Source of the DNA: Bacteroidaceae bacterium
Lineage (GTDB): Bacteria > Bacteroidota > Bacteroidia > Bacteroidales > Bacteroidaceae
DNA: 64,000 nucleotides
Direction: 5' to 3'
Assembly (NCBI GenBank): GCA_017429525.1
Contig: JAFROT010000028.1
Span: forward strand, 53,751-117,750
Made by a program: the position numbers and the translations under genes. Under the pieces are notes generated by a model, which worked only from the letters and a program-made list of their open reading frames with translations, did not search any database and was not told the origin of the DNA. How positions within the stretch are numbered: position 1 is the first letter of the stretch; every line of letters begins with the position of its first letter. Positions 6,462 through 62,360 of the stretch are shown here, piece after piece.

Positions 6462-6661
6462 CACATATATTCGCGCAGCCCTCCACGTCTATATGTGCAA
6501 GGCTGCGCGTCTATATGTGCAAGGCTGCGCGTCTATATGTGCAAGGCTGCGCGTCTATATGTGTGAGGCTGCGCGTCTATATGTGTGAGGCTTCACGTTT
6601 ATATGTGTGTGGCTGAACGTCTATATGTATCGCTGGCTTCGTTTGTACGTCCTGGTTCGGG
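6462..6661 (-). repeat. 22-bp-period tandem array, family A site 1
   Basis: Eight 22-base units run from 6486 to 6661. The first three are identical on the plus strand (CGTCTATATGTGCAAGGCTG plus CG) and the last three are increasingly degenerate. A weak extra unit begins near 6462. Read on the minus strand each unit is CAGCC, three variable bases, then CACATATAGACGCG, the same layout as the arrays at 46459 and 62229. There are no unique spacers, so it is not CRISPR. It occupies the upstream intergenic region of the GH128-like gene. Short frames over it (for example 6343-6616) are repeat translations, not genes. Confidence 0.9.
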
Positions 6662-6762
6662 CTGTCCGTTAGGGCTACTTTTCAGGGCCGATTGTGCTGT
6701 CCTGGACTACAGATGATCCGATTTTGTGGAAATTTATGTCCTTCTTGCAAATTCATCTCCTT

Positions 6763-6930
6763 TTAAAGAATGGGTGTACGCATGTGCTCTGTTTTCCATT
6801 CTTCAACTACGTCCTCGTTGAGTATGCCTTTGGCTTACAATTGGGCAATGGCATCCTCTGCATGCTCGGCAAATACTGACCAAGAATATGGCGAATGTTC
6901 TGCATATACTTTTCAGATGTGAGTATAGTG
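6763..6930 (-). pseudogene. Possible decayed gene fragment
   Basis: Minus-strand translation of this stretch shows coding-like text broken between frames: a piece reading SEKYMQNIRHILGQ continues, after a frame change, as VFAEHAEDAIAQL, an in-frame TAA, then AKGILNEDVVEEWKTEHM and a stop at 6763-6765. The amphipathic, charged composition differs from random translation of the flanks. I do not recognise the family. It would be a remnant with one frameshift and one nonsense change. Bases 6662-6760 show nothing I can assign. Confidence 0.25.
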
Positions 6931-6959
6931 CAGTTAAATGATATTCGCTGATTGCCTGA

Positions 6960-7940
6960 TTAGCCGCGTAGTTTTTGCTGCTCACTTTCCCGCAGGTCGC
7001 GGAAGCGGGTGAGCTGGCGGATGACCTCTTCGGGGTCGTCGGTGAGGGAGAGGAGCAGGTTCTTGTACATGCCCGCGTGGGTGAGGTCCTGCAGGAGGGG
7101 ATAGATGGGCATCTGCTCTGTCCAGAAGGTTTTGCCGAAGAAGATCATGGGGCTGGAGAAGCCGAAGGAGAGGTAGTGGTTCTGCACGGCGTCCTGGAAG
7201 ATCTCCTGCATGGTGCCTGCGCTTCCGGGCGTGTAGATGATGCCTCCGTAGGCGATGGTGAGGATGGTGTCCTCACGAATGCTATTCTCGAAGAACTTGG
7301 CGATATGCGTGGCAAAGGGCGTCGAAGGCTCGTGGCCGTAGAGCCAGGTGGGGATGCCGAGGCTGATGTAGCGGCGTTGTGGGTAGCGCCTGATGACATG
7401 GAAGGCCGACGCGAGCCATCCTGCATCGCCGAACGCAGGTGCACAACTGAGCATGGAAAGGGCCTCGTCGAGGTCTGCATCTGTACGGCCGGCCATCCAT
7501 GCGCCAAGGTGCGTGGCTTCCATGGCGCCCGGGCCGCCGCCGCTGATCATATAGAAACCGAGCTCGGTGAGGCGCTTGCTCATCTGCGCAATCTGACGGT
7601 ACATCCCATCCGTGCGACGGAGGGCGTGGCCGCCCATGATGCCGATGTAGCGGCTTGACTCATAACGGCGAAGGAAGGTGCAGAGGCCGGTGTGGATGCC
7701 GTGATCGTGCAACGAACGGGCCAGCGATTCCTCGACGGAGTCGGTGGTCTTACCCGTGGCGATGTAGTGGGCATAGACGCGGCTGTCGTAACTGCGCTCG
7801 AAGCTCTCTTCGTCGTCGGGGTCGTAGCCCTCATAGAGCTCGGCAGCAGAATAGAGTTGATGGCGAGTGACATCGTAGGGAACCGATCGTAGGTGCTCGA
7901 CGATTCCTGCTAACTTGACGTGGTCGGGTTGTGAGAGCAT
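6960..7940 (-). CDS. LOG-family (lysine-decarboxylase-like) Rossmann protein
   Basis: The 326-residue product carries GGGPGAME at residues 134-141 and PGSAGTMQE at 238-246, the two hallmark motifs of the LOG/TIGR00730 family (GGGxxGxM and PGGxGTxxE). The second is a variant with S-A in place of G-x. Members include cytokinin-riboside 5'-monophosphate phosphoribohydrolases and other nucleotide hydrolases; several are mis-named lysine decarboxylases. An extra about 95-residue N-terminal region precedes the core, making it longer than the roughly 180-200-residue LOG proteins. It follows ftsK on the same strand with 47 bases between. The substrate cannot be told from sequence. Confidence 0.85.
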   Translation of the reverse strand: MLSQPDHVKLAGIVEHLRSVPYDVTRHQLYSAAELYEGYDPDDEESFERSYDSRVYAHYIATGKTTDSVEESLARSLHDHGIHTGLCTFLRRYESSRYIGIMGGHALRRTDGMYRQIAQMSKRLTELGFYMISGGGPGAMEATHLGAWMAGRTDADLDEALSMLSCAPAFGDAGWLASAFHVIRRYPQRRYISLGIPTWLYGHEPSTPFATHIAKFFENSIREDTILTIAYGGIIYTPGSAGTMQEIFQDAVQNHYLSFGFSSPMIFFGKTFWTEQMPIYPLLQDLTHAGMYKNLLLSLTDDPEEVIRQLTRFRDLRESEQQKLRG

Positions 7941-7987
7941 GTGCTATGGCGTTGAAGGATGGATAATGGCTGTTGAGGGGCGAAGCA

Positions 7988-10606
7988 TCAGAGGCTGGTG
8001 AGGAGCATCTCGAGCGAAGCCTCGTCCTGAATGAGCACTTCGCGCGGCTTGGAACCCTGCGCAGCACCCACGACACCCGCTTTCTCGAGCTGGTCCATGA
8101 GGCGACCGGCGCGGTTGTAGCCGATGGAGAACTTGCGCTGGATCATGCTTGTGGAGCCTTGCTGAGTGGAGATGATGAGGCGTGCGGCGTCGGCAAACAT
8201 GGGGTCGAGGTGTTCCATGTCGACATCGTTGCCTGGAGCGCCTCCGTCCTCCATGGGTGGGCGCGGCAGTGCGAAAGGATGGTTATAGCTCTGCTGGCAG
8301 GCGATGAAGGAAGCAATTCGTTCCACCTCGGGCGTGTCGACGAATGCACATTGGAGGCGGACGGGCTCGCTACCAGCCAGGAAGAGCATATCGCCCTTGC
8401 CGATTAGCTGGTTGGCGCCAGGACGGTCGAGGATGGTGCGAGAGTCGATCATCGCGCTGACCTTGAAGGCCATACGTGCGGGGAAGTTGGCCTTGATGGT
8501 GCCTGTGATGATGTTGGTGGTCGGGCGCTGGGTGGCAATAATCATGTGCATGCCGACGGCTCGAGCCAACTGGGCGATGCGGGCGATGGGGAGCTCTATC
8601 TCCTTGCCCGCCGTCATGATGAGGTCGCCGAACTCATCGATAATCACTACGATGTAGGGCAGGAACTTGTGCCCGTTCTCGGGGTTCAGCTGACGGTTGC
8701 GGAACTTCTCGTTGTATTCCTTAATATTACGCACGCGCGCTTTCTTGAGCAGCTCGTAACGGGTGTCCATCTCTACGCAAAGGCTCTTGAGCGTGTTGAT
8801 GACCTTCTGCACGTCGGTGATGATGGGTTCGTCCTCGTAGTCGTCCTCAATCTGGGCGAGGAAATGGTTGACGATGGGCGTGTAGATGGGGAATTCAACC
8901 TTCTTGGGGTCTACCATGACAAACTTGAGCTCGGCCGGATGTTTCTTGTAGAGGAGCGAGGTGATGATGGCGTTGAGGCCGACGGACTTACCCTGACCCG
9001 TAGCACCTGCGACGAGGAGGTGAGGCATCTTGGTGAGGTCGGCCATGAAGACCTCGTTGGTGATGGTCTTTCCGAGGGCCATGGGCAGTTCCATGGTCGT
9101 CTCCTGGAACTTGCGGCTGTTGAGGATGCTCTCCATCGAGACAATCTGCGGCTTAGCGTTGGGCACCTCGATACCGATGGTACCCTTGCCGGGGATAGGC
9201 GCGATGATGCGGATGCCCAGAGCGGAGAGCGAGAGGGCGATGTCGTCCTCGAGGTTGCGAATCTTGGAGATGCGAACGCCGGGAGCCGGGGTGATCTCGT
9301 AGAGCGTGATGGTGGGGCCGACGGTAGCCTTGATGCTCGAAATCTCAACGCCGAAAGTGCGCAGGACGTAGATAATCTGGTCCTTGTTCTTCGTCTGCTC
9401 CTCCATGTCGATGTTGGCGCGCGGATCTACTTCGTAGTGCTTGAGGAGGTCGAGGGTGGGGTAGTGGTAGTTTTCGAGGTCGAGCTTCGGGTCGTAGGGC
9501 TCGAGTGCGGCCTCACGTTCGGCATCGGCCAACTCTTCCTCGACGGGAGCGGTAATGGTGAGTGGCGTGTCGGAGGCCGGAATGACGGGAGCATCAGCCT
9601 CGGGGGCGGTAATCCATGATTCGGCTGTGGCTGCGACCTGGGCTACGGGGATGTCGTCGATGGCTGAGGCAGAAGCAGGGACCGTTGCAGTCGCAACGGA
9701 TGCGGTGGCCGCAGAGGTGGCGTCGGCCGGGGTGATGGCATCGGGGATGTGGGGCTCGAAATGCACGATGTTCGATTCGTCGGGCGCATTGTCATCAGCA
9801 GGAGGCGTTGCCGTTTCGGTACGCTCGTCGGCAGGGGCTTCGGTAGAGTCTACGAGCCGCTTGTTGAATCGCTGGAAGAAGGCTACAATACGGCTGAGCA
9901 CGGGATAACGCTCGCGCAACTCGCGTGCAAACTGCTGAGGATGCAGCAGGCGCTTGATGATGCGGATGGTCTCAGCACTCAAGTAGCAGAGATAAGCCAG
10001 AAGGGCGAGAGCGATGATGAGGAACGCCCCCACCGATCCACCAAAATGCTGAAGCAGCTCAACAACACGCTGCCCATGATAGCCACCAGGCTTGATGTAG
10101 CTGACGTCGGGATTGCTGGCGAAAGACGACGTGAAGAAGAACGCCGCAGCCACGCTGACCCAACACAAGAGGATGGTGCAGTTAATGAACCATTTCCAGA
10201 GGCGAACGTGGTAGGCGCCAGTCAGCTTGAGCGATGCAGCAAAGAGAAAGACAGGAATGAAGAAGGCTCCGAGGCCGAAATTCTTGGTCATCCAATACTC
10301 GCTCCACCACGCGCCGATATATCCCGCCCAGTTCTGTGCGTCGCCTACGCTTCCGGGTTGCAGCACTTTCTGATCTTCGCCCCCCGTGAACAAATGGGAG
10401 GCAAAACTGAGAAGGGTGAAGGCAGCGAGCGCCAGCATGACGACACCTGCAGCCATGCGAATGGCTTCGCCGCGTGACATCGGCTCGTCGCTGTCGCCAT
10501 GGAGCGCATTGGCGATTTGCAGACCTTGTGGTTCGGGGGCTTGTGCCTTTGAAGAACGTTTGCGCGAGCGCTTCTCAGGCGCTTTCTTAGGGCTATGCTT
10601 ATCCAT
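7988..10606 (-). CDS. ftsK: DNA translocase FtsK/SpoIIIE
   Basis: This 872-residue protein has a basic N-terminus, about four hydrophobic segments (roughly residues 50-215), a variable Ala/Thr/Pro-rich linker (about 250-360), then the alpha, beta and gamma motor modules. Walker A GATGQGKS lies at 534-541 and the Walker B-like VVIIDEFGDLI about 115 residues later. The C-terminal winged helix (SMIQRKFSIGYNRAGRLMDQLEKAGVVG) is the gamma domain that reads polar DNA sequences. FtsK pumps DNA at the septum and activates XerCD recombination at dif. The short linker is usual for this phylum. A -7 box lies at 10636-10643 in the divergent spacer. Confidence 0.95.
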   Translation of the reverse strand: MDKHSPKKAPEKRSRKRSSKAQAPEPQGLQIANALHGDSDEPMSRGEAIRMAAGVVMLALAAFTLLSFASHLFTGGEDQKVLQPGSVGDAQNWAGYIGAWWSEYWMTKNFGLGAFFIPVFLFAASLKLTGAYHVRLWKWFINCTILLCWVSVAAAFFFTSSFASNPDVSYIKPGGYHGQRVVELLQHFGGSVGAFLIIALALLAYLCYLSAETIRIIKRLLHPQQFARELRERYPVLSRIVAFFQRFNKRLVDSTEAPADERTETATPPADDNAPDESNIVHFEPHIPDAITPADATSAATASVATATVPASASAIDDIPVAQVAATAESWITAPEADAPVIPASDTPLTITAPVEEELADAEREAALEPYDPKLDLENYHYPTLDLLKHYEVDPRANIDMEEQTKNKDQIIYVLRTFGVEISSIKATVGPTITLYEITPAPGVRISKIRNLEDDIALSLSALGIRIIAPIPGKGTIGIEVPNAKPQIVSMESILNSRKFQETTMELPMALGKTITNEVFMADLTKMPHLLVAGATGQGKSVGLNAIITSLLYKKHPAELKFVMVDPKKVEFPIYTPIVNHFLAQIEDDYEDEPIITDVQKVINTLKSLCVEMDTRYELLKKARVRNIKEYNEKFRNRQLNPENGHKFLPYIVVIIDEFGDLIMTAGKEIELPIARIAQLARAVGMHMIIATQRPTTNIITGTIKANFPARMAFKVSAMIDSRTILDRPGANQLIGKGDMLFLAGSEPVRLQCAFVDTPEVERIASFIACQQSYNHPFALPRPPMEDGGAPGNDVDMEHLDPMFADAARLIISTQQGSTSMIQRKFSIGYNRAGRLMDQLEKAGVVGAAQGSKPREVLIQDEASLEMLLTSL

Positions 10607-10635
10607 AAAATTCTTTTCTATTCCTTATTCCGCTG

Positions 10636-10643
10636 CAAAAGTA
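10636..10643 (-). promoter_or_regulatory. -7 box TACTTTTG for ftsK
   Basis: Minus-strand TACTTTTG (TAnnTTTG) lies 30 bases upstream of the ftsK start in the divergent spacer shared with the DUF5063 gene. Confidence 0.5.
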
Positions 10644-10697
10644 ATGAAATATTGTTAAGTTTTCGCACAATCCTTCGTTTTTTTTTATAAAAAACAC

Positions 10698-10705
10698 TAC
10701 TTTTG
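10698..10705 (+). promoter_or_regulatory. -7 box TACTTTTG for the DUF5063 operon
   Basis: Plus-strand TACTTTTG lies 24 bases upstream of the ATG at 10729. With the minus-strand box at 10636 it makes a compact divergent promoter pair. Confidence 0.55.
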
Positions 10706-10728
10706 CACGCCTTAATGCCAAAAAGAAT

Positions 10729-11232
10729 ATGAATATCGTCTATTCACAGCCCGTTGTTGAGTTCGTAACTGTTGCTACAGAGTTCTGTGCGTTTCTCGAA
10801 CAGAGCGAAGGACGTGACCGTAACGAACTGGTAGATCGTTTGTTGAAATTGCTGCCTCTGCTGTATCTGAAGGCTCAGCTATTGCCGCAGGTAGAAGGTA
10901 ATGATGAGTTCGAGCCCGAGACGTATGTCACCGAGCAGGACTACAACTGGTTGCGCGCCATCCTGGCTGACGTGATGGCCGAGGAAGATGAATATGAGGA
11001 CTTTGTCTACGACGAGGGCGTTCGCATGGAAGAGACCCGATGGAAGCGCGTGAGCGAAGGCCTGGCTGACATCTACCAACCTGTGCGCGATTTCGTGGAG
11101 ACCTTCCGTAATGGCGTTGAGGAGAATATAGAAGAGGCGCTGTGGGCGCTGAATGATCATTTTGAACTTTACTGGGGCAGCGACCTCGTGGACACGTTGC
11201 GTCAACTGCACCGCACCCGTTACGTTTCGTGA
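10729..11232 (+). CDS. DUF5063 family protein
   Basis: The 167-residue, strongly acidic, helical protein matches the DUF5063 pattern I know from Bacteroidota (N-terminal VEFVTVATEFCAFLE and central EQDYNWLRAILAD). It has no signal peptide, membrane segment or catalytic motif that I can see, and the function is unknown. Its TGA overlaps the GTG start of the downstream exonuclease by four bases, and the rRNA methyltransferase follows with another overlap, so the three genes are probably one operon. The constant pairing suggests a role alongside RNA processing or modification; that is inference. Confidence 0.75.
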   Translation: MNIVYSQPVVEFVTVATEFCAFLEQSEGRDRNELVDRLLKLLPLLYLKAQLLPQVEGNDEFEPETYVTEQDYNWLRAILADVMAEEDEYEDFVYDEGVRMEETRWKRVSEGLADIYQPVRDFVETFRNGVEENIEEALWALNDHFELYWGSDLVDTLRQLHRTRYVS

Positions 11233-11861
11233 AAAGAATCTACGATAAATACGACAAGAAAGCTATTCCCAACCTGCCTGTCACGCATTTCGAGGGACGA
11301 ATCATCGTCATCCAGAGCGAAGGCGAGGCACGTCGGGCGGTTGACTATCTGATGACATTCCCTCGCGTGGGCATCGACACGGAGACACGTCCGAACTTCA
11401 AGCCAGGAGGCATGCATCCCGTGGCGCTTCTGCAAGTGTCGACGGAAACGACCTGTTTCCTCTTTCGTCTGAATCGGATTGGGTTGCCGTCCTGCGTCGT
11501 CAGGTTGCTCGAAGCGGAGTCGACGGTCAAGGTGGGGCTATCGCTTCATGATGATTGGTCTCAGCTCTGTAAGCGTGCTGAATTCAAGCCTACTAACTAT
11601 GTTGAGTTGCAGGACTACGTGAAGCCGTTGGGCATTATCGATATGAGTTTGCAGAAACTCTATGCCAACCTCTTCGGACAGAAGATATCCAAGAACCAAC
11701 GCCTCACGAATTGGGAAGCCGATGTGCTGACAGAAGCCCAGAAGCTATATGCGGCTACCGATGCCTGGGCGTGCCTGAAATTACACGATGAAATCGGGCA
11801 TTTGCTGGCAACTCATGATTATGAACTCATAAAGACTCAAAATGACGAACCTCACTCTTGA
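11229..11861 (+). CDS. 3'-5' exonuclease domain protein (RNase D / DEDD superfamily)
   Basis: Translation starts at the GTG at 11229 (GTGA overlap with the upstream stop). The 210-residue protein has the DEDD exonuclease I motif at VGIDTETRPNF (Asp and Glu metal ligands), the II motif near VGLSLHDDWSQL, and motif III in LYAATDAWACLKLHDEI (Y-x3-D). This fits the single-domain PF01612 proteins of Bacteroidota. It should remove 3' nucleotides from RNA or DNA in the cytoplasm. It lies between a DUF5063 gene and an rRNA methyltransferase gene, overlapping the latter by 20 bases, which hints at RNA as substrate. Confidence 0.85.
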   Translation: MKRIYDKYDKKAIPNLPVTHFEGRIIVIQSEGEARRAVDYLMTFPRVGIDTETRPNFKPGGMHPVALLQVSTETTCFLFRLNRIGLPSCVVRLLEAESTVKVGLSLHDDWSQLCKRAEFKPTNYVELQDYVKPLGIIDMSLQKLYANLFGQKISKNQRLTNWEADVLTEAQKLYAATDAWACLKLHDEIGHLLATHDYELIKTQNDEPHS

Positions 11862-13023
11862 ACGCGGCAAAGACGAGTCGCTGCGACGCTTTCATCCTTG
11901 GGTTTTCTCGGGTGCCATCCACCATTTCGACCATCAGCCCGAAGAAGGCGACCTTGTGCGTGTGCTCACCGCCGAGGGCGACTTCATCGCAATCGGGCAT
12001 TGGCAGATAGGGTCTATAGCCGTACGTGTTCTCTCCTTCCAGGATGAGCCCATCGACGACGACTTCTGGCAACGTCGGCTGGCGACGGCCCTTGATGTCC
12101 GCAAGGGCATAGGTGTGGCCGGTAATCCTTCGAATGACACTTATCGCCTCTGCCACGGCGAAGGCGACAACTTGCCTGGTCTGGTCGTCGATATCTACGG
12201 GCAGACGGCTGTCATGCAGGCTCATAGCGTGGGCATGCACGTGGCGCGCTTTGATATTGCCAAGGCGTTGAAGCGCGTGATGGGCGACGGACTGGCCAAC
12301 ATCTACTATAAGAGCGAGACCACGTTGCCGTTCAAGGCTGATTTGGGGCAGGAGAACGGCTTCCTGCTCGGAGGCGATGCCGATAACGTAGCTATTGAGA
12401 ACGGTTTACGTTTCCATATTGACTGGATTCGAGGTCAGAAGACGGGCTTCTTCGTCGACCAGCGAGATAACCGCTCGCTGCTCGAACGCTATTCGAAAGG
12501 GCGCTCAGTACTCAACATGTTCTGCTATACCGGTGGCTTCTCCGTCTATGCCTTACGTGGCGGGGCTCGGCTGGTTCATTCCGTAGACAGTTCGGCTAAG
12601 GCGGTTGAGCTCGTAAATGCTAATGTAGCGCTCAATTTTGCTGGCGACCCTCGTCATGAAGCCTTTGCTGAGGATGCGTTCAAATATCTGCAGCAGATGG
12701 ATGCTGACAAGTACGACCTGATTATTCTTGATCCTCCGGCTTTTGCGAAGCATAAGGACGCCCTGCGTAATGCCCTGAAGGGTTACACCAGGTTGAATGT
12801 TCGTGCTTTCGAGAAAATCCGCAAGGGCGGCATCCTGTTCACCTTCTCGTGCTCGCAGGCCGTTTCGAAAGATCAGTTCCGCATGGCTGTGTTCACGGCA
12901 GCTGCGCAGAGTGGCCGTAGCGTCAGAATCCTGCATCAGTTGCATCAGCCGGCAGACCATCCTGTGAATATTTATCATCCAGAAGGCGAATATCTGAAAG
13001 GATTGGTACTTTATGTCGAATAA
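11842..13023 (+). CDS. rlmI: 23S rRNA (cytosine-C5)-methyltransferase, RlmI-like
   Basis: The 393-residue protein has an N-terminal PUA-type domain (LERGKDESLRRFHPWVFSGAI), a central domain, and a class I SAM methyltransferase domain. VLNMFCYTGGFSVYALRGGA is the SAM-binding motif I, DLIILDPPAFAKHK is the DPPxF motif IV, and FTFSCSQAVS supplies the motif VI cysteine (SCS) expected of RNA m5C methyltransferases. Length and domain order match RlmI/RlmK-type enzymes that modify a cytosine in 23S rRNA; the exact base (C1962 in E. coli) is assumed from family. It is the last gene of a three-gene overlapping operon. Confidence 0.9.
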   Translation: MTNLTLERGKDESLRRFHPWVFSGAIHHFDHQPEEGDLVRVLTAEGDFIAIGHWQIGSIAVRVLSFQDEPIDDDFWQRRLATALDVRKGIGVAGNPSNDTYRLCHGEGDNLPGLVVDIYGQTAVMQAHSVGMHVARFDIAKALKRVMGDGLANIYYKSETTLPFKADLGQENGFLLGGDADNVAIENGLRFHIDWIRGQKTGFFVDQRDNRSLLERYSKGRSVLNMFCYTGGFSVYALRGGARLVHSVDSSAKAVELVNANVALNFAGDPRHEAFAEDAFKYLQQMDADKYDLIILDPPAFAKHKDALRNALKGYTRLNVRAFEKIRKGGILFTFSCSQAVSKDQFRMAVFTAAAQSGRSVRILHQLHQPADHPVNIYHPEGEYLKGLVLYVE

Positions 13024-13130
13024 TCGTATAAAAATACAACTATAGCGTTAATTGATTTAACAAATGCACCCCGTTAATTCGCTGAATTGTTAAATAGAAT
13101 TAATTGCTATAGAAAAATATGATAAAACAC

Positions 13131-13160: not shown

Positions 13161-13166
13161 CAACGT

Positions 13167-24534: not shown

Positions 24535-24644
24535 CTTATGCCCAGCTCTCTAAGGCTTCAACAGGCCGCTTTTGGGCTCTTGGGCTTGATGGGGCCGTTC
24601 AGCGATCTCTACGTGGCGGCGAGGCGAAAGGAGGCGGGGTAGCG

Positions 24645-24707
24645 CACATATAATCGCGCGGGTCTGCACATATATACGCGCAAGGCTGCGCGTATATATG
24701 TGCAGAC
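24645..24707 (-). repeat. 22-bp family A site 2: perfect hairpin
   Basis: Arms at 24662-24682 and 24687-24707 are perfectly complementary over 21 bases around a 4-base loop AGGC. The arms contain TGCACATATATACGCGCA, the core of the 22-bp family seen at 6486, 46459 and 62229, so this looks like one unit facing an inverted copy. A degenerate half unit (CGCACATATAATCGCG) lies just upstream at about 24645. The site is in the convergent spacer between the DUF3127 and DEAD-box genes; the rest of 24535-24806 shows no gene. Confidence 0.9.
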
Positions 24708-46415: not shown

Positions 46416-46440
46416 TTCCGCGATAATCAGCGTCCAGCCT

Positions 46441-46590
46441 GCGTCCATTCGTTCGGCCCTACACGTATATTCGTTCGGCCCTACACGTATAGTCGCTCAG
46501 CCTCACACATATAGTCGCTCAGCCTTACGCATATATACGCTCAGCCTCACACGTATATATGTGCAGCCCTACACATATATATGTGTTCAT
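46441..46590 (+). repeat. 22-bp-period tandem array, family A site 3
   Basis: Six 22-base units run from 46459 to 46590 with a partial one before them. The units near the lyase gene are degenerate (CTACACGTATATTCG) and those toward panD are closest to the core (CACACGTATATATGTG). The connector between cores is CAGCC or CGGCC plus a few bases, as in the arrays at 6486 and 62229. It lies in the convergent spacer between the PL11 gene and panD. Confidence 0.9.
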
Positions 46591-46669
46591 CGTTCGGTCG
46601 CGACCGAATAACCCTTTCATCTATATGTTTCCGTTGATTTGGCGGATTGTTGCTCAAGTTTGATACAAA

Positions 46670-53552: not shown

Positions 53553-53572
53553 AGTTGCTTGATTTTAGGGAG

Positions 53573-55680: not shown

Positions 55681-55711
55681 TGCCGTAGAACATAAAACAC
55701 AAGTGTCTGAT

Positions 55712-56413
55712 ATGACCAGAAGATTACCTACTGTAAAGGATTTGCTGCCCAAGTTGTCTGATCTACTCGGCTTGCTCACGATGGACGAGCACGAACAGTT
55801 GTTGAAAGATGCATCCGTCCATGTTTTTCGCAAGAATGAACTCATCTATAATCCTGGTGATAAGCCAACGCATCTTCATTGTCTCTTAAGTGGTAAGGTG
55901 AAAATATGTAAGGATGGCGTCGGAGGGCGCACGCAGATAGTACGTGTGATTCGTCCCGTTGAGTACTTTGGCTACCGTCCTGCATTTGCAGGCGAGAACT
56001 ACGTCTCTTATGCGCTTGCTTTTGAGAACTCCACGATTGTTCGTATCCCCATGGACGAGGTGATCAAAGTCGTAAAAGGAAATGCACGCTTGTCGTGGTT
56101 CTTTATCAATCGTTTGGCTACTGATCTCGGTCGTGCTGACGAGCGTACGGTCAGCTTGACACAGAAGCATATCCGCGGTCGGTTGGCAGATGCTCTGCTT
56201 TTCCTTAAAGAGAGCTATGGCGTTGAAGAAGATGGCTTTACACTAAGCATCTATTTGAGTCGTGAGGATCTGGCGAACCTTTCGAACATGACGACCAGCA
56301 ATGCCATCCGCACGCTCTCAGCCTTTGCAGCTGAGCGACTCGTTGCTGTGGACGGGCGCAAAGTAAAGCTTTTGGATATTGCCAAGCTGGAGAAAATTAG
56401 CCGGATAGGGTAA
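55712..56413 (+). CDS. Crp/Fnr family transcriptional regulator
   Basis: The 233-residue protein has a cyclic-nucleotide-binding beta-roll (about 20-140; NELIYNPGDKPTHLHCLLSGKVKI) and a C-terminal HTH (about 170-225; YLSREDLANLSNMTTSNAIRTLSAFAAERLV). The REDL-A-x6-R pattern is the Crp-type helix. No cysteine cluster for an Fe-S centre is present, so oxygen sensing through Fnr-like chemistry is unlikely. It is divergent from the glycogen operon, with a 195-base spacer, so it could regulate that operon; this is inference. Confidence 0.9.
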   Translation: MTRRLPTVKDLLPKLSDLLGLLTMDEHEQLLKDASVHVFRKNELIYNPGDKPTHLHCLLSGKVKICKDGVGGRTQIVRVIRPVEYFGYRPAFAGENYVSYALAFENSTIVRIPMDEVIKVVKGNARLSWFFINRLATDLGRADERTVSLTQKHIRGRLADALLFLKESYGVEEDGFTLSIYLSREDLANLSNMTTSNAIRTLSAFAAERLVAVDGRKVKLLDIAKLEKISRIG

Positions 56414-56567
56414 ACGGCTTGACGGGATGTCCTTTAGATCCTATAGATTCTATATATTCTTTAGAAACTATAGGGCCTTTAGCCATTCTTTGCCATTCTT
56501 TGATTCTTTAGACTTCCTGGATTCTCAGGCCTTCCTTTTTGGTAGCGAAACGATAGCGGTCTTCTCT

Positions 56568-57521
56568 TTAAGACGGAATGATAAAGTTGATATATTCGGC
56601 ATTCAGAGTGATGTCGAATGGTGCTCGGAAGCCTTCGAGGACGATTCCATCTGTGCTGAGGGATGCTTTGCTGATCTCGTCGAAGTGTATAGCACGTGGT
56701 GTCCGATAGGCACAGACATTCTTGTGACTGAGGAACTTACCCGTGAATAGCATGCCGAGGCCTTCAATAAGTTGTCGCATTTCGGGATAAGAAATGACGC
56801 TCACGTCGAGCATTCCGTTGTAGGGTACGGCGTTGGGCGTCATGCCGTAGGCACGACTATTACCGATGCAGACGCTCATGACTTTGCGTTCCACCGTCTC
56901 TTCGTTCACCTTGAAGCGCATCTTCATTTCCATTCGTTGGAACAAGAGCAGAATCATACTCGAGAAGTAAGTGAGCGTCGTCAGCCCGAAGATGCGGCGC
57001 GTCTTATACTTCAATTTCATGATGTTAGCCACTAAGCCCACATTCGCACAATTAAGGAAATAGCGTTTGTCGGCAGAACGTGTCTCACCGTCCGTCTCGC
57101 CCTCTTGCTGCAGGCAAGTGATACATCCCACATCTACCTTTCTCATGCGCCTCTCCATCAACCATCTGACGGTGCGGGCATCGTCTTCTTCGCTGAAACC
57201 CCAGAATGATGCAAAATCATTGCCGCGTCCATTGGGAATAATGCCTAAGGCCACGCGTTGGCGGACCTCTTCGTCGAAGGTCAGTAAGGCATTCAGCGCA
57301 CGGTTGAGTGCTGAGTCACCCCCTACAATGATAAGTGTCTCATAGCCATTGTTCACCAACATACAAGTCAACCGACCCACACTTTCTGCGCCTTCGCTCT
57401 GCACGAAGTCATAAGCAACTCCGTTCGTATCAAGCAATTCCTTGATACGCTCCCAGCGTTTGTGCGTGCGTCTTACGCCTTGCTTCGGGCAGTAGATAAT
57501 GCCCCAACGGGTCTTTTCCAT
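56568..57521 (-). CDS. Diacylglycerol/lipid kinase family protein (YegS-like)
   Basis: The 317-residue protein has the DAGK catalytic fold. The glycine-rich nucleotide loop reads GGDSALNR at about 82-89, where GGDGTxNE is usual; G-to-S, T-to-A and E-to-R changes are notable. IIPNGRGNDFA (nucleotide and metal site) is kept. The C-terminal beta-sandwich (about 170-310) is present. It would phosphorylate a lipid using ATP, but the altered GGD motif leaves activity in doubt. MiaA lies 51 bases upstream. Confidence 0.78.
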   Translation of the reverse strand: MEKTRWGIIYCPKQGVRRTHKRWERIKELLDTNGVAYDFVQSEGAESVGRLTCMLVNNGYETLIIVGGDSALNRALNALLTFDEEVRQRVALGIIPNGRGNDFASFWGFSEEDDARTVRWLMERRMRKVDVGCITCLQQEGETDGETRSADKRYFLNCANVGLVANIMKLKYKTRRIFGLTTLTYFSSMILLLFQRMEMKMRFKVNEETVERKVMSVCIGNSRAYGMTPNAVPYNGMLDVSVISYPEMRQLIEGLGMLFTGKFLSHKNVCAYRTPRAIHFDEISKASLSTDGIVLEGFRAPFDITLNAEYINFIIPS

Positions 57522-57572
57522 TTCGCAGTTTATTAAGTAGTTATGCCTTTGTTGCGTTTTACTATTCTTATG

Positions 57573-58640
57573 TCACGAAGTCGTGAGGCCTTTCTTGAAT
57601 AGGTCTATGATTTCATCGACAATCCCATTTGTTGTACGTGTGGCGTCAATCCAGTGAATTGAAACGCCTCGTCGTTCCATTCCACGGAAATAGGTCATCT
57701 GCCGTTTAGCAAACTGGTGAATGGCGATTTCCAATTGTCTGGCCATCTCATCGTAACCGATTTGGCCGAGAATGTATTGTGTCAGGTAGCGGTACTCAAG
57801 TCCGTAGCTGATGAGGGCTTCTGAGGTCACGCCGCTATCAAGCAATCGTTTGACCTCGTCGACCATCCCTTCGTCATTGAGTCGCCTGTGTAATCGTTCG
57901 GTGATACGCTGTCGGCGCAGTTCTCTTGGAATGTCCAGCCCAATCGTGAGCGAGGTTGGGGTAGGGTAGTCCTGCTGCCGGTCGAGGTCGTGTGAGCGGT
58001 AGTATTCTTCGATCTCGATGGCACGAATAGCACGTCGGGCGGTGTCTACGTCGGTGGTATTGTGAAGGCGTTTGTATGTAGCAAGTATTGCGGTCAGCTC
58101 TGCTAATGATTGTCCCTCAAGGCGTTGTCGCAACTCTTCATTGATGGGCACTTCCACCAGATTGTAGCCTCTGAGCACGCTCTCGATATACAGTCCAGTG
58201 CCACCGCAGAGTATGGGCTGATGTCCGCGCTTGAGGATGGCATCGAAGGCTCGAAAGAAGTCGCGTTGGAAATGAAATACGGAGTACTTTGTTCCCGCCT
58301 CGGCTATATCGATGAGGTGGTAAGGAATGTGCAGCAGCTTCTTGCGATTGTGCCCGCAGTTCTCATCCTTGCCTTCCTTGGGGTCTTCTTCTCGATTCAT
58401 CAGCACTACATCGTAGTCGGCCAGGTCTTTACCTGTACCGATGTCCATACCACGGAACACCTGTCGGGAATCCGCACTGATGATTTCGGCCGTGCTCTCC
58501 CACTCATTATCAGCCTGGTAAACGCGTTTCGATGACTGCTTATCATCGTAATGTTCCGCCGTCAGTCGCGCAGCCAACTGCGTGGCTACGGCCGTCTTTC
58601 CGCAGGCTGTAGGGCCCAATATGGTGATTAACGTGCTCAT
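57573..58640 (-). CDS. miaA: tRNA dimethylallyltransferase MiaA
   Basis: The 355-residue protein has Walker A GPTACGKT (about 9-16), SADSRQVFRGMDIGTGK and the GGTGLYIESVL motif, with TARRAIRAIEI and HQFAKRQMTYFRG later. It adds a dimethylallyl group to A37 of tRNAs reading UNN codons. It is about 50 residues longer than most MiaA; two insertions (about residues 30-50 and 84-102) rich in charged residues lie between conserved motifs. A -7 box TATCTTTG at 58649-58656 precedes it. Confidence 0.94.
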   Translation of the reverse strand: MSTLITILGPTACGKTAVATQLAARLTAEHYDDKQSSKRVYQADNEWESTAEIISADSRQVFRGMDIGTGKDLADYDVVLMNREEDPKEGKDENCGHNRKKLLHIPYHLIDIAEAGTKYSVFHFQRDFFRAFDAILKRGHQPILCGGTGLYIESVLRGYNLVEVPINEELRQRLEGQSLAELTAILATYKRLHNTTDVDTARRAIRAIEIEEYYRSHDLDRQQDYPTPTSLTIGLDIPRELRRQRITERLHRRLNDEGMVDEVKRLLDSGVTSEALISYGLEYRYLTQYILGQIGYDEMARQLEIAIHQFAKRQMTYFRGMERRGVSIHWIDATRTTNGIVDEIIDLFKKGLTTS

Positions 58641-58654
58641 TGCGGCAGCAAAGA

Positions 58655-58690
58655 TAATAAAAAAGACCGTCCGATGAGCACCGGACGGTC
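58655..58690 (-). terminator. Rho-independent terminator of gap
   Basis: GACCGTCCG (58665-58673) and CGGACGGTC (58682-58690) form a perfect 9-base stem around an 8-base loop. Read on the minus strand it is followed by TTTTTTATT. It lies 22 bases after the gap stop and touches the miaA -7 box at 58649-58656. Confidence 0.85.
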
Positions 58691-58711
58691 AAAAATCGCA
58701 TAATTTTAAGC

Positions 58712-59737
58712 TTATTTCAACTCAGCGAGATACTTGATGGTGCGAACCATCTGGCTGGTGTAGCTGTTCTCGTTGTCGTACCAAGCAACAACCTGAACGA
58801 GCGAGTTGCCATCACCAATCTTGCTGACCATGGTCTGGTTGGCATCGAAGAGCGAACCAAACTTCATGCCGATGATGTCGCTGCTGACGAGCTTCTCCTC
58901 GGTGTAACCGAAGCTCTCGTTGGTAGCGGCCTTCATGGCAGCGTTGATGTCCTCAACAGTAACCTCACCCTTCACAACAGCGTGCAGGATGGTGGTGGAA
59001 CCAGTGGGAGTCGGAACGCGCTGAGCAGCACCGATCAGCTTGCCGTTGAGCTCGGGGATAACGAGACCGATAGCCTTGGCAGCACCCGTTGAGTTAGGAA
59101 CGATGTTCTGGGCACCGGCACGAGCGCGCTGTACATCACCCTTGCGCTGAGGACCGTCGAGAATCATCTGGTCGCCAGTGTAAGCGTGAACAGTCGTCAT
59201 GATACCGCTCTGGATGGGAGCGAAATCGTTCAGAGCCTTCGTCATGGGAGCCAAGCAGTTGGTGGTGCAGCTGGCAGCGCTGATGACGGTGTCGGCGGGA
59301 GTCAGAGTCGTGTGGTTCACGTTGTAGACGATGGTGGGGAGGTCGTTGCCGGCAGGAGCAGAGATGACAACCTTCTTGGCACCAGCCTTGATGTGTGCGG
59401 AAGCCTTCTCCTTAGAAGTGTAGAAACCTGTGCACTCGAGAACGACGTCAACGTTCAGTTCGCCCCAAGGCAGCTCAGCAGCATTGGGCACTGCATAGAT
59501 GGTGATCTCCTTACCATCAACGATGATGGAGTTGTCTGTGCAGTCCACAGTGTGCTTGTTCTCGCCGAACTTGCCGCAGAAACCGCCCTGAGCGGTGTCA
59601 TACTTCAGCAGGTGAGCCAGCATCTTGGGGCTGGTGAGGTCGTTGATAGCGACTACTTCGTAGCCTTCTGCCTCGAACATCTGACGGAATGCGAGGCGAC
59701 CGATACGGCCGAAGCCGTTAATAGCAACTTTTGTCAT
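58712..59737 (-). CDS. gap: Type I glyceraldehyde-3-phosphate dehydrogenase
   Basis: The 341-residue protein has the NAD-binding N-terminus ([16 protein letters not shown]) and the catalytic cysteine in SCTTNCLAP, with the phosphate-site YTGDQ and [14 protein letters not shown]. Asp in AINDL (about residue 33) points to NAD preference. It oxidises glyceraldehyde-3-phosphate in glycolysis. It is monocistronic, with a strong terminator at 58655-58690. Confidence 0.97.
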
Positions 59738-59969
59738 TTCTTTTTCTTTTTGGGTTAAAAAGTTGATTAAATGAATTAGTATTGAAACTTAACGTTTACT
59801 CGTGTCTGTTTGCCGTGCACAAAAGTGCTCGCCCTTGTTAACCACAATTGCAGTATTCTGCACTCTTACAAGCCACAAAAAGTAGGCTCGAGAGCACCAA
59901 AATGAGGAAATTTAGGGGTCTGAACGACATTTTTTCTTGTTTTACGCGGCAAAAGTACAAAATTTGTTT

Positions 59970-59977
59970 TATATTTG
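59970..59977 (+). promoter_or_regulatory. -7 box TATATTTG for mscL
   Basis: Plus-strand TATATTTG lies 32 bases upstream of the mscL ATG. A minus-strand TACTTTTG at 59950-59957 could serve gap, though it is 213 bases from that start. Confidence 0.5.
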
Positions 59978-60008
59978 CATCATCAAACCCCTAAAATAAT
60001 ATTAAATC

Positions 60009-60404
60009 ATGGCAAATTTTATTCAAGAGTTTAAAGACTTCGCTATGCGAGGCAATGTAATGGACATGGCAGTCGGTGTCATCATCGGCGGTGCCTTTGG
60101 TAAAATTATCTCCTCGTTGGTTGACGACGTGCTCATGCCCGCTATCGGTATGCTCACGGGCAACGTTGACTTCACCAACCTGGTTTGCAAGATCGGTGAG
60201 GGCGAAGGTGCAGCCGTATTGAAGTACGGCCAGTTCATCCAGAACATCGTCGACTTCCTCATCGTAGCACTCTGCATCTTCTGCATCGTCAAGGCTATCA
60301 ACGCTGCTAGCAAGAAGAAGGAAGAACCCGCTCCCGAGGCTCCCGCTGGTCCTACTCAGGAAGAGCTCCTCACAGAGATCCGCGACCTTCTCGCAAAGAA
60401 GTAA
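60009..60404 (+). CDS. mscL: Large-conductance mechanosensitive channel MscL
   Basis: The 131-residue protein has the N-terminal [30 protein letters not shown], with the first membrane helix, a second helix (about 70-95, [17 protein letters not shown]) and a C-terminal bundle ([14 protein letters not shown]). It opens under membrane tension to release solutes. A -7 box TATATTTG at 59970-59977 lies 32 bases before the ATG, and a terminator follows at 60456-60486. Confidence 0.96.
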
Positions 60405-60455
60405 TTTCATTCGCTCTCGCGCGCGTACATTATAATTAATGTTCATGCGTCTCAC

Positions 60456-60486
60456 AGCCGTGCGGTCATTCTGCACGGCTTTTTCT
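60456..60486 (+). terminator. Rho-independent terminator of mscL
   Basis: AGCCGTGC (60456-60463), a 9-base loop, GCACGGCT (60473-60480), then TTTTTCTG. It lies 52 bases after the mscL stop. Confidence 0.85.
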
Positions 60487-60490
60487 GTCC

Positions 60491-61711
60491 TTAGTCGGAA
60501 AAAGAAACTGTCATTACGTTGGCAGGTGGACGTTGGTTGCGTAACTCCTCTGCCATGAAATCCATGTAGGGTGCTACGTGAGCAAAGAATCGTCGATAGT
60601 CGTGGCACAGGTAGTTCAGTCCTCGTGTGCCGTCGTCGGCCTTGGCAAAGCGGTCCTTGGGGCAGCCGCCATTGCAGGCGAACAACCACTTACATTCCTT
60701 GCATTGGCTGGGCAGCGCATCACGTTTGGCGTTTCCGAAAGCACGTTGGCGGTCGCTATACATCATCGCAGCGATGGAATCGTGGTGGATATTGCCTAAG
60801 CGATATTCGGGAAACACGAAGTGGTCGCAAGCGTATACGTCTCCGTTGTGCTCAATAACCCCTGCGTGACCGCAGGTGGCAGCCATCGAGCAGACGCCAG
60901 GTGCTTCGCCTACCCAACAAGCCAATGTGCTGTCGAAGAGTTGCACATACACTTGTCCTACGTCGTGCTTCACCCATTCGTCGAAGATGGTTGTTGCGAA
61001 GTGCGCGAACTGTCCTTGTCGAACGCTGAAGTCTGCCAGTTCGCCTTCTGCTTCATCTGCCATCGATGCCAGATGACGTCCATCGGTGTGGCGGACGATG
61101 CGTTCCACGATAGGGGTAAACTGAATGTAGTGACATCCTATCTCCTTGTAGAAATGGTAGACGTCAAGTGGGTAGTCGGCATTGAAGTCGTTGACCACGC
61201 CCATTGCATTCCATTCCACGCCATGCTTCTCGAGCAGTTCAATGCCATGCATGACCTTTCTGAATGATGGCTGTCCACCACGGGCACGGCGGTATTCGTC
61301 ATGCAAATCCTGAGGTCCGTCGATGCTAACCCCCACCAGCCAGTTGTTCTCCTTGAAGAATTGGCACCACTCGTCGGTCAGTAGCGTCCCATTCGTCTGT
61401 ATGCAGTTGTCAATCAGTCGTCCGCCACCGTATTCTCGTTGAAGGGCCAGCGCTCGCTTGTAGAAACTGACAGGTCGCATCAGCGGTTCGCCGCCATGCC
61501 AGGTGAAGAGAACTTGCGCCTGTGTCTGCGACAGGATGTACTGCCTGATGAATTCCTCCAGCGTCTCATCCGTCATCAGCGAGCGTCGCTTCTGTTCGTC
61601 GGCATAGAGGTGACTTTTTTCCAGATAATAGCAGTATTTGCAAGCGAGATTGCAAACGCTCCCAATGGGCTTGGTCATCACATACAACGGTCGTGAGAAT
61701 GGGGCTAACAT
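60491..61711 (-). CDS. Anaerobic sulfatase-maturase-type radical SAM/SPASM protein
   Basis: The 406-residue protein has the radical SAM cluster CNLACKYC (C-x3-C-x2-C, about 19-26), GGEP (about 74-77), and a C-terminal SPASM domain with several cysteines (CSMAATCGHAGV, CKECKWLFACNGGCP). This matches enzymes that turn a Cys or Ser of sulfatases into formylglycine. No sulfatase gene is in this window, so the target is unknown. It lies 21 bases downstream of the TfoX-domain gene on the same strand, so the two may be co-transcribed. Confidence 0.9.
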   Translation of the reverse strand: MLAPFSRPLYVMTKPIGSVCNLACKYCYYLEKSHLYADEQKRRSLMTDETLEEFIRQYILSQTQAQVLFTWHGGEPLMRPVSFYKRALALQREYGGGRLIDNCIQTNGTLLTDEWCQFFKENNWLVGVSIDGPQDLHDEYRRARGGQPSFRKVMHGIELLEKHGVEWNAMGVVNDFNADYPLDVYHFYKEIGCHYIQFTPIVERIVRHTDGRHLASMADEAEGELADFSVRQGQFAHFATTIFDEWVKHDVGQVYVQLFDSTLACWVGEAPGVCSMAATCGHAGVIEHNGDVYACDHFVFPEYRLGNIHHDSIAAMMYSDRQRAFGNAKRDALPSQCKECKWLFACNGGCPKDRFAKADDGTRGLNYLCHDYRRFFAHVAPYMDFMAEELRNQRPPANVMTVSFSD

Positions 61712-61732
61712 GTTGGTCTCTTGTTGGTTCTT

Positions 61733-62050
61733 TTAACGTTTTGTCTTTTTCGCCACTTGTAGTGCTTTGCATGTCTCACGGACAAGCATTGAGAGGTAGT
61801 CACGGTCGTCGACTTCGTCAATATAAAAATAAGGTTTTGCACCTTCATAGGGCGGTCTCATTTCTTCTTGTCTGAGCAAGCCACGAGCGGCTTCAGTAGG
61901 CTTCAGGTAGAGGTGGTCGTCGCAGATGAGTCCGAAAATCATTCCGTTGCAGTAGACACCATAGTCGCCAAACATTTTCTTGGTCATGATCTCGCCAGCA
62001 CCGCTGCATTGGTCGGCGATGTATTGAACGAAGTCTGCATTACTAGCCAT
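61733..62050 (-). CDS. TfoX N-terminal domain protein
   Basis: The 105-residue protein matches the TfoX/Sxy N-terminal domain (MTKKMFGDYGVYCNGMIFGLICDDHLYLKP) with YFYIDEVDDRDYLSMLVRET. It has no C-terminal TfoX domain, as is usual for stand-alone copies. A competence role known from Gammaproteobacteria should not be assumed. A -7 box TACCTTTG on the minus strand at 62149-62156 lies about 100 bases upstream. Confidence 0.85.
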   Translation of the reverse strand: MASNADFVQYIADQCSGAGEIMTKKMFGDYGVYCNGMIFGLICDDHLYLKPTEAARGLLRQEEMRPPYEGAKPYFYIDEVDDRDYLSMLVRETCKALQVAKKTKR

Positions 62051-62148
62051 AGTCTGGATGTGCTTTATGTTTAGTTGCGGAAGTTATTATTGTCCGTCGA
62101 TGGAGTGATGTGCATCGTGATAGAGAAGAGCCCTCTTCATAGACGGGG

Positions 62149-62156
62149 CAAAGGTA
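62149..62156 (-). promoter_or_regulatory. -7 box TACCTTTG for the TfoX-domain gene
   Basis: Minus-strand TACCTTTG lies about 100 bases upstream of the TfoX gene start, just before the 22-bp repeat array. Confidence 0.5.
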
Positions 62157-62228
62157 AGTAAAATCAGCGACAGTTGATGCAAAATGGCTTATTTTTCGCA
62201 CGATAAGGAAAAATAGTTTGTTTAGACG

Positions 62229-62360
62229 CCACACATATATACGTGCAGCCCGATACATATATACGTGTAGCCCGATACATATATACGTGCAACCCGATAC
62301 ATATATACGTGCAGCCTCACACATATATACGTGTAGCCTCACGCGTATATACGTGCAGGG
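62229..62360 (+). repeat. 22-bp-period tandem array, family A site 4 (cleanest copy)
   Basis: Six 22-base units run from 62229 to 62360. Each has a core ACATATATACGTG (sixth unit GCGTATATACGTG) followed by CAGCC, TAGCC, CAACC or CAGGG and three variable bases (CGA, TCA). The core is close to the palindrome CACGTATATACGTG. There are no spacers. The array lies between the TfoX gene and the Y-family polymerase, which are divergent; bases 62361-62548 hold no gene apart from the uncertain 5' end of that polymerase. Confidence 0.92.

Follow-up and report, generated by a model that had tools for sequence, protein, structure and literature searches.

Dispersed intergenic arrays of unrelated palindromes in a common 22-bp register in a Bacteroidaceae bacterium and its relatives

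Fis sites, iterons and parC/parS-type arrays consist of degenerate dyads that recur about every two turns on the same helix face, with one word, one protein and one or few loci in each case. Dispersed palindromic repeats occur commonly in bacterial genomes and are usually described by their sequence tags and a transposase. In REP-rich genomes, REPs are located mainly between unidirectional and convergent ORFs (PMC3733652). The BrickBuilt elements of Porphyromonas gingivalis consist of imperfect tandem units of 22-23 nt at dispersed intergenic loci and vary by locus (PMC4596501). Related non-coding tandem arrays scattered in the genome have also been reported, as a rare feature, in Leptospira interrogans and Methanocella conradii; their repeats are longer than those found here, and a dyad register is not among the features described in that account (PMC6749651).

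We analyzed a 64-kb stretch of DNA from a Bacteroidaceae bacterium (referred to as the window). TRF found period-22 arrays at 6486-6628, 24644-24698, 46447-46580 and 62233-62366. All four sites are arrays of a near-palindromic core, about CACGTATATACGTG, with exact 22-bp spacing, and one 22-bp register holds the core dyads at each site. The pattern CRYRTATAYRYG has 18 matches in the window, while 0.19 are expected from shuffles. TRF and the dyad register thus confirm the original prediction of core-bearing 22-bp arrays at four intergenic sites, in a family larger than it noted. The exact 22-base period, given there for three sites, holds for these three and also for the fourth, where the supposed hairpin at 24662-24707 is the TRF array of three cores at 24644-24698. 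Its site spacing of 16-22 kb is no rule, the genome-wide coordinates being irregular by eye, and variation between units is found in the core too, besides the connector.

Some arrays include a second, unrelated palindrome, either type A TTCGGTCGCGACCGAA or type B TGGATCACCATGGTGGTCCA. These second palindromes, which lie in the array register, had been overlooked in the original prediction. The features of the four sites, none assigned to a strand, are:

6413..6655, no strand: Site 1, 22-bp dyad lattice in a tandem gap flanked by two minus-strand genes
Site 1 core axes: after 6424 (with 1 mismatch), 6468, 6490, 6512, 6534, 6556, 6578, 6600 and 6622; 6644 weak
6436..6457, no strand: Site 1 type B palindrome GTGGACCACCATGGTGATCCAC, axis after 6446, in the array register
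24645..24702, no strand: Site 2, three cores, axes after 24651, 24673 and 24695
46440..46585, no strand: Site 3, seven cores, axes after 46446 (2 mismatches) to 46578
46589..46612, no strand: Site 3 type A palindrome (TTCGGTCGCGACCGAA core), axis after 46600, in the array register
62232..62366, no strand: Site 4, six cores, axes after 62238 to 62348; 62370 weak

According to gene prediction, Site 2 occupies a convergent gap, about 100 bp downstream of a minus-strand DEAD helicase gene. Site 3 is also in a convergent gap, and its neighbours are a dockerin-bearing rhamnogalacturonan lyase gene and a small minus-strand gene. Its orthologue in the sister species, L121, has both the array and the type A palindrome.

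The window genome contains at least 50 array sites, and none of 53 family arrays (12 or 13 of 22 positions matching a reference unit) is genic by gene prediction, as is characteristic of REPs as intergenic dispersed palindromic repeats. The genome-wide dispersal that had been proposed is supported by 38 and 41 matches, with 0 for a reversed-pattern control, and by arrays in other species; searches of the genome and of relatives therefore do not leave a family of only four sites or of a single strain. In the sister species RUG14845, 16 of the 18 loci that can be compared have an array in the same position, with units replaced and whole units gained or lost between the two species. The loci persist in both sister species; inside each array, modules come and go and become homogenised. 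Arrays of TATATACG are abundant in only 2 of 49 genomes of the same genus; the type A anchor occurs in 14 and the type B word in 9 of 121 genomes. Because of this patchiness (2/49 for TATATACG, 14/121 for type A), the arrays are unlikely to be essential. Synteny around the loci was broken in 48 relatives when flanking proteins were compared. Matches in Porphyromonas gingivicanis, Flavobacterium, Treponema and a gammaproteobacterium may be due to chance, since any period-22 array can contain a degenerate core by luck. Phage-borne mobility was considered and rejected, with one 3-unit match in IMG/VR. So was a regulator network of solitary cores, of which 6 were intergenic against 0.9 core matches in shuffles, several of them next to arrays.

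Among the columns of 49 and 78 array consensuses, only C3 and G12 are (nearly) invariant. We measured core spacing in 38 regions of G000 picked on one unit only, because the pattern used to fetch G041 arrays demanded three cores at 22 bp; core matches less than 16 bp apart were merged. Of 152 core gaps of at most 50 bp, 134 were of 22 bp, 13 of 44 bp and 5 of other lengths, and none was of 23 bp, the BrickBuilt unit. Under a narrower merging rule, extra gaps of 8 bp and 14 bp appear (12 in G000), and these sum to 22. Neighbouring units differ by about 16% substitution, yet their 22-bp spacing is nearly fixed. As 121 indels accompany 1077 substitutions in intergenic DNA away from the arrays, the spacing is stricter than flanking DNA would predict, in line with the helical phasing suggested earlier. 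By TRF, indels are only weakly rarer in arrays than in the genome's other intergenic repeats (14/53 vs 30/70, p=0.09). Across 13 orthologous pairs, the core is less diverged than the connector (18/130 vs 36/104, p=3e-4). This sample comprised core-selected G041 arrays and their G000 partners: 17 pairs were reduced to 15, two being without an array consensus on one side, and then to 13 by dropping L126/L226 (different place) and L161/L053 (mis-rotated), and the contrast is stronger without both. The halves of the TATATACG core do not covary (598 pairs vs 613 permuted), and TATATACG cores are often imperfect palindromes.

The register extends to the anchor palindromes. For A or B palindromes within 150 bp of a core, the dyad axis falls at multiples of 22 bp in 33 of 33, at least 3 pairs of these being orthologous; five more distant matches to a loose pattern are without the full A or B word. 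In the flanks of arrays, 4.0% of register axes bear a strong palindrome; at each of the 21 remaining offsets the figure is 0-0.3%. Elsewhere in the genus, types A and B lie within 22-bp lattices of different palindromes. At 23 type A loci from other species that have no TATATACG-like module inside 120 bp, pairing averages 2.83 of 7 on the register and 1.70 elsewhere (p=1e-18), and a weaker second axis stands 11 bp from the register axis (2.44 at +11). At 7 type B loci, likewise from other species and with no such module, the on-register mean is 3.82 (p=2e-20). The TATATACG-word search covered genomes other than G337, a source of other lattice words. In other species, unselected lattice words surrounding type A covary, with 392 pairs against 299 expected and none of 2000 permutations as high. 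Perfect or near-perfect palindromes stand near A/B in L334, L356 and L366 of other species, and many register positions close to type A have no good palindrome. A lattice around any strong palindrome was rejected, as no clear register was seen (2.11 vs 1.78 in G042, 1.86 vs 1.96 in G160). What the lattices have in common is their geometry, palindrome axes every 22 bp, and two anchor words. The modules are several unrelated words: TATATACG, expanded in the window species and its sister, others elsewhere, and the anchors A and B.

In the window species and its sister, arrays prefer convergent gene gaps: 28 of 48 array gaps are convergent, compared with 33 of 245 (p=2e-10) and with 11 of 59 gaps holding repeats of other periods (p=4e-5). 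Five loci, the Porphyromonas gingivicanis, Flavobacterium, Treponema and gammaproteobacterium matches, were left out when gene context was counted. Just 3 of the 48 gaps are divergent, Site 4 being one, against 36 of 245, a difference not significant alone (p=0.16). An unbiased sample gave 5 convergent and 2 divergent among 9 gaps. No convergent bias was found for type A elements elsewhere (6 of 23 placed) or in G160/G142 (2 of 12).

The arrays resemble BIMEs and REPs as dispersed intergenic palindromic mosaics, many per genome and often at gene 3' ends. They differ in that modules are head to tail in an exact 22-bp dyad register and include several unrelated words, in having no constant GTAG or CGTC tag (no tetranucleotide is constant in the 49 and 78 consensuses), and in the absence of a convincing RAYT from the window genome. 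The stable stem-loop with compensatory changes of REPs is likewise not seen in TATATACG units, which do not covary, and REP membership fails on tag and covariation. The RAYT profile (Y1 transposase, PF01797) matches in 6 of 12 genomes. The match is partial and near the cut-off in the window genome (22.7 bits, 47/121 positions) and in G041, G042 and G009, and full-length in G160, which carries the core, and G031; G142, G182, G015, G039, G032 and G045 have none. A RAYT-driven REP was considered and set aside, the matches of the window genome and G041 being only partial. Compared with Fis, iteron and par-type arrays, many words share one register at dozens of loci here. CRISPR repeats are separated by unique spacers, whereas these units are contiguous and their 8-bp connectors repeated too. 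The stated unlikeness to CRISPR is thereby upheld, as is that to intrinsic terminators, with no excess of hairpin+T-run sites at arrays. The evidence does not support identifying the arrays as MITEs, CRISPR or terminators. Nor does it support a partition or general nucleoid role in the form suggested originally: patchiness among species speaks against an essential role of this kind, the sites prefer convergent gaps in two species, and the family comprises several unrelated palindromes.

We tentatively favour a helically phased, BIME-like nucleoprotein array with a putative binding protein, without regarding it as probable. In its favour stand the common register of A/B and flank palindromes, the lattices lacking TATATACG, the rarity of spacing errors, the less diverged core, the preference for convergent gaps and RNA folding that does not favour the transcribed strand. 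The core palindrome fits a putative site for a dimeric protein, as first proposed. The palindromes would be double-stranded DNA sites for one or more such proteins, and the register would be kept for that reason, with dimers side by side on one helix face, two turns apart. Anchors A and B may be strong nucleation sites, and the weaker flanking modules might be filled cooperatively. The resulting block at gene 3' ends, often between convergent genes, could act as a topological or transcriptional boundary like E. coli BIMEs. Counting against the nucleoprotein reading are the imperfect, non-covarying TATATACG palindromes, the register positions near type A without a good palindrome, the patchy distribution, the convergent bias that is absent elsewhere and reaches 5/9 in the unbiased sample, and TRF indels only weakly rarer than in other repeats; unrelated words in one register are also hard to reconcile with one sequence-specific protein. 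The main rival, a selfish or neutral minisatellite, is possible but doubtful. Hairpins at replication forks would cause slippage or template switching in whole 22-nt modules, quasi-palindrome correction would keep the palindromes, and arrays would survive where harmless, mainly at gene 3' ends. Homogenised arrays, whole-unit copy changes between sister species, patchiness and the few divergent sites agree with it, and descent of all the unrelated words from a single old array could explain their common register. It accounts poorly for spacing nearly fixed despite the substitution between adjacent units (the TRF measure being weaker) and for a connector more diverged than the core, and the recurrence of one TATATACG word at 50 or more loci, and of the A and B words in 14 and 9 genomes, calls for spread or selection at the level of the word.

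Palindromes of unrelated sequence in one register would also suit an unlikely alternative, in which cruciforms or hairpins are read instead of sequence, for example by a protein that recognises structure or, where genes converge, as sinks for supercoiling. The palindromes of L334, L356 and L366 and the covarying halves there agree with this, but the TATATACG modules, here the most frequent word, are poorly palindromic and do not covary, and cruciforms do not require helical spacing. It is quite improbable that the arrays act in RNA as bidirectional terminators or 3'-UTR stabilisers. They do lie at gene 3' ends, beginning within 60 bp of the stop codon at 17 of 56 convergent ends (1 of the 17 has a hairpin+T-run before the array), and the median folding z is -2.9. 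Nevertheless, the sense strand folds more stably at just 12 of the 33 tandem sites (p=0.56), hairpin+T-run sites are present at 16 of the 56 convergent ends that face an array and at 23 of 56 controls (p=0.23), Rfam gave just two sub-threshold matches in 7 loci, both far from the array, and RNA hairpins do not need an exact 22-bp phase. An RNA hairpin or intrinsic terminator identity was rejected, there being no strand preference and no significant difference in canonical terminators. A MITE or other transposon with a minisatellite inside, like BrickBuilt, is very improbable. BrickBuilt shares with the arrays a Bacteroidales host, dispersed intergenic loci of tandem units and a near-identical period class, but is described with 23-nt units, a leader, a tail and IS5-like terminal repeats (PMC4596501). 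A handful of 10-mers that are not part of the palindromes are found next to as many as 5 of the 53 arrays. No leader, tail or terminal repeats were found here: 9 of 53 arrays is the most that any flanking 10-mer accompanies, the most frequent ones are part of type A/B palindromes (the one at 9/53 of type A), and flanks align between two species right up to the array edge (L183/L072, L110/L069, L144/L074). The MITE identity was rejected for want of common flanks.

Beyond the nucleoprotein reading itself, there is a real possibility, short of a probable one, that the arrays represent a new class of element defined by geometry: unrelated palindromes in a 22-bp (two-turn) register around two conserved anchors, read by a putative polymerising dimer or structure-specific protein, where species-specific words turn over and positions persist. 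Here independent sequences, in place of a sequence tag, keep one helical register. This is hard to reach by drift alone, and shifting the phase becomes a way to ask whether such repeats bind protein or are simply tolerated. Should a binding protein exist, rumen Bacteroidales would have a new type of chromosome-organising or boundary system; otherwise the elements would be a clean record of hairpin-driven module duplication.

The original prediction placed arrays of a 22-bp unit at four intergenic sites of the window, and all four are real. The period of 22 bp, claimed for three of them, holds at these three and also at the fourth, where the supposed hairpin at 24662-24707 proved to be three cores in 22-bp steps. 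The pattern CRYRTATAYRYG has 18 matches in the window versus 0.19 in shuffles. The core search proposed for the full genome (G000; 3.30 Mb in 56 contigs, 86.5% complete; window at C23:53751-117750) gave at least 50 sites, not four. A 19-bp unit pattern, allowing at most three mismatches, matched 79 times (none in the reversed control), in 38 places of which at least one (L056) resembles a chance match. A two-core search gave 325 matches (45 in the reversed control), and among the matches listed 12 further places were added; both sets of places, with extra sample arrays, make up the count of at least 50. An unbiased sample of 464 kb, namely the window and 20 stretches picked irrespective of repeats, holds 9 family arrays, each in its own gap, which scales to about 60–70 per genome. 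Among intergenic tandem repeats with periods above 7 in this sample, 22 was the commonest period (11 arrays), and period 44 occurred twice and period 66 once.

Each module consists of a 14-bp core close to YRCRTATANWCGYG, with the near-palindromic word TATATACG, and an 8-bp connector close to YAGSCYTW. The array consensuses analysed came from arrays chosen for their resemblance to a reference unit. In them, C3 and G12, which mirror each other across the dyad, are invariant in all 49 from G000, and are kept in 75 and 74 of 78 from a collection of named genomes, respectively. The letter sets of the core halves mirror each other, which fits two independently read half-sites; an arbitrary strand choice per array would yield the identical mirror image. 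The halves do not covary (598 complementary pairs vs 613 in permutations), which argues against strong selection of the TATATACG word as a hairpin. Rare 23-bp units with one extra base at the core centre (CGTACTATACG and similar) recur at several loci of both sister species (L078, L062 and L199 in G000; L131 in RUG14845, here G041).

From k-mers enriched beside the arrays we traced two other palindromes, type A (TTCGGTCGCGACCGAA, mostly inside GTTRTTCGGTCGCGACCGAAYAAC) and type B (close to TGGATCACCATGGTGGTCCA). In the loci compared from G000 and the named genomes, type A has 21 copies within 150 bp of a core and type B has 12, and the distance from axis to nearest core is a multiple of 22 bp in 33 of 33 (22 bp in 21 cases, 44 bp in nine, then 66, 88 and 132 bp), the chance being 1 in 22 each and at least three orthologous pairs being included. 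Five more distant matches to the loose A/B search patterns contain no full A or B word. Strong palindromes (at least 7 of 8 pairs, words not preselected) in array flanks of 5–90 nt occupy 4.0% of 1009 axis positions in register versus 0–0.3% per other offset, and include 14 other 12-mers, some of them alike, beyond the A, B and TATATACG words. At the first window site, a type B palindrome is flanked by cores on both sides in a common register. Non-palindromic 10-mers such as GCAAAATGAA, AGTGGAAGCA and AACAAAGAAT recur next to as many as 5 of 53 G000 arrays and are perhaps parts of another intergenic repeat.

Lattices of other words were found in other species. A search of 121 same-genus genomes for exact type A was positive in 14 (none with the reversed control), with 27 copies in G000, 12 in G015, 9 in G041, 5 in G039, 4 in G337 and 1–2 in nine others; type B is present in 9 of 121, and both together in 7 (hypergeometric p=2e-6). 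In G015, the connector-bearing two-unit TATATACG pattern has no match and the core-only pattern one (3 in the control); its type A locus L348 does carry TATATACG-like modules. Many register 22-mers near type A are palindromes of other sequences and many others are non-palindromic; the order at L334 is AATGAAGACCGCGGTCTTCGAG, CTGTAAGAGCGTGCTCTTCGAA, GCGTAAGACCGCGGTCTTATTG, type A, CGAGTTCCATGCATGGAACACG. The type A lattice set comprises 28 of 32 copies from twelve genomes besides G000 and G041. Its mean pairing (of 7) is 2.77 in register, 2.40 at +11 and 1.72 at all off-register positions (p=5e-20); the 23 loci that lack any TATATACG-like module within 120 bp give 2.83, 2.44 and 1.70 (p=1e-18). 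For type B, with 8 of 10 loci readable on the searched strand, register pairing is 3.81 (p=2e-24), and 3.82 in the seven loci without TATATACG-like modules (p=2e-20). Words taken without selection at the first or second step from type A show covariation (392 pairs vs 299 expected, 0 of 2000 permutations). Unselected strong palindromes in samples of G042 and G160 gave no clear register.

Several further repeats were seen. Other words, such as AGACTGCGCACTCGCGGGGCTG, GCCTGTACAGGC and GTGTACAC, form period-22 arrays or palindromes that adjoin TATATACG modules at L217-L220 (G182), L163, L171 and L123; at the last two, such palindromes are in common register. Palindromes repeated with 22- or 44-bp spacing and without the TATATACG word (TTTCCAANNNNTTGGAAA; GTCGACTATTCGAC) lie at L239:3888 and 3932, and at L199:3216-3301 and L172:2073-2171. 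Repeats of 21 bp such as AAAAAGACTTTGAGGTTTTTT repeatedly adjoin 22-bp arrays, within a few hundred bp, at L206-L216 (G160 and G142, of another genus). In 200 kb of G042 (same genus, no two-unit match), 22 is the commonest intergenic repeat period (6 of 28 arrays), in unrelated sequences (stretches L244, L246, L247, L249, L250).

The spacing was measured in 38 regions picked on one unit alone. Of the core gaps no longer than 50 bp, 134 measure 22 bp, 13 measure 44 bp and 5 have other values (21, 24, 28, 45, 48). Neighbouring units differ at 16% of their positions. Between the sister species, intergenic DNA beyond the arrays shows 121 indels to 1077 substitutions, a ratio from which, by arithmetic, about 50 spacing errors would be expected. 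The TRF indel measure counts against a spacing constraint, being only weakly lower in arrays (14 of 53 vs 30 of 70 other intergenic repeats, p=0.09).

Of 33 array loci that the named collection gave for RUG14845, 18 map to the G000 stretches compared. An array sits at the corresponding position for 16 of these, with L114 and L131 flanking one single site; L116 and L126 are the two exceptions. Most flanking proteins share over 83% identity. Orthologous arrays differ by whole units (L144 vs L074) and by a unit replaced array-wide (L128 vs L198). A/B palindromes are common to both species at L183/L072, L133/L068 and L121/window, and not at L135/L225 and L179/L196. Across 13 orthologous pairs, 18 of 130 core sites (positions 3–12) have diverged, compared with 36 of 104 connector sites (15–22) (p=3e-4); the full set of 15 pairs gives 27 of 150 for the core, 44 of 120 for the connector (p=8e-4).

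The connector-bearing two-unit pattern occurs in 7 of 81 genomes, all of the same genus as G000, and is abundant in G000 and G041 only. The core-only pattern was matched in 11 of the 201 family genomes; G142, G160 and G182 are clear carriers (8, 11 and 18 matches; controls 0), and the remaining genomes have 1–4 matches with some controls equally high (up to 22 in G082). The named collection gave 83 stretches, mostly from uncultured Bacteroidales, Bacteroidaceae and Prevotellaceae, many from rumen; viral contigs gave one match. Tandem arrays of TATATACG-like cores at 22 or 11 bp in Porphyromonas gingivicanis (L170) and Flavobacterium suncheonense (L117, L125) may be chance, given the degenerate pattern.

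Genes were called by a hexamer-based prediction made for the present analysis. Of the 53 G000 arrays, 48 lie each in a different gap, 4 fall in gaps already counted and one lies at an edge.

Gene gaps by orientation (convergent/tandem/divergent)
G000 array gaps (48): 28/17/3
All sample gaps of at least 30 nt: 33/176/36 (vs array gaps, p=2e-10)
Sample gaps of at least 250 nt: 14/30/19 (p=1.5e-4)
Unbiased sample arrays: 5/2/2
Other-period repeats, same stretches: 11/43/5 (p=4e-5)
G041 arrays: 15/12/0
Other named-collection genomes: 16/14/4
G160/G142 arrays: 2/6/4
Type A elements, other species: 6/14/3 (plus 1 genic, 4 at edges)

These counts show that the convergent bias belongs to the TATATACG arrays of G000 and G041 and not to lattices generally; it is also seen, less clearly, in other named-collection genomes. 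A separate 6/12/18-bp tandem repeat (AACGAAAACG, window 2745-2848) adjoins a gene of 1140 aa that weakly matches a ricin-type lectin.

The arrays have stable predicted RNA folds (median z -2.9). At tandem sites the transcribed strand generally has no advantage over its complement (12 of 33, p=0.56), nor does the nearer gene's strand at convergent ones (15 of 46; p=0.09 for the reverse preference). Cruciform-capable repeats beside stop codons and gene ends in E. coli are mostly terminator parts, according to PMC6060812. Canonical terminators at array-facing ends are neither significantly rarer nor commoner. Rfam gave only two sub-threshold matches in seven lattice loci, both far from the array. 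REP/BIME elements are likewise dispersed and placed at gene 3' ends, as PMC3733652 describes. However, they have constant GTAG/CGTC tags, which the arrays lack, and RAYT evidence is marginal in G000, with a full-length match in G160. Of the BIMEs, BIME-2 is bound by gyrase. BrickBuilt (PMC4596501) has terminal repeats, a leader and a tail, none of which was found at the arrays. Dispersed non-coding satellite families of long repeats were reported in only two surveyed prokaryotes (PMC6749651). Searches of an open-access library gave no description of a 22-bp palindrome-lattice element.

The anatomy is well supported, in that palindromes of several words are phased, loci persist, units turn over and the spacing is protected; the function we infer. 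The phasing and the protected core favour protein binding to duplex DNA, for which Fis sites offer an analogy as phased arrays of dimeric-protein sites. A selfish component is favoured by the patchy distribution and the homogenisation. Both may be true here, as with BIMEs.
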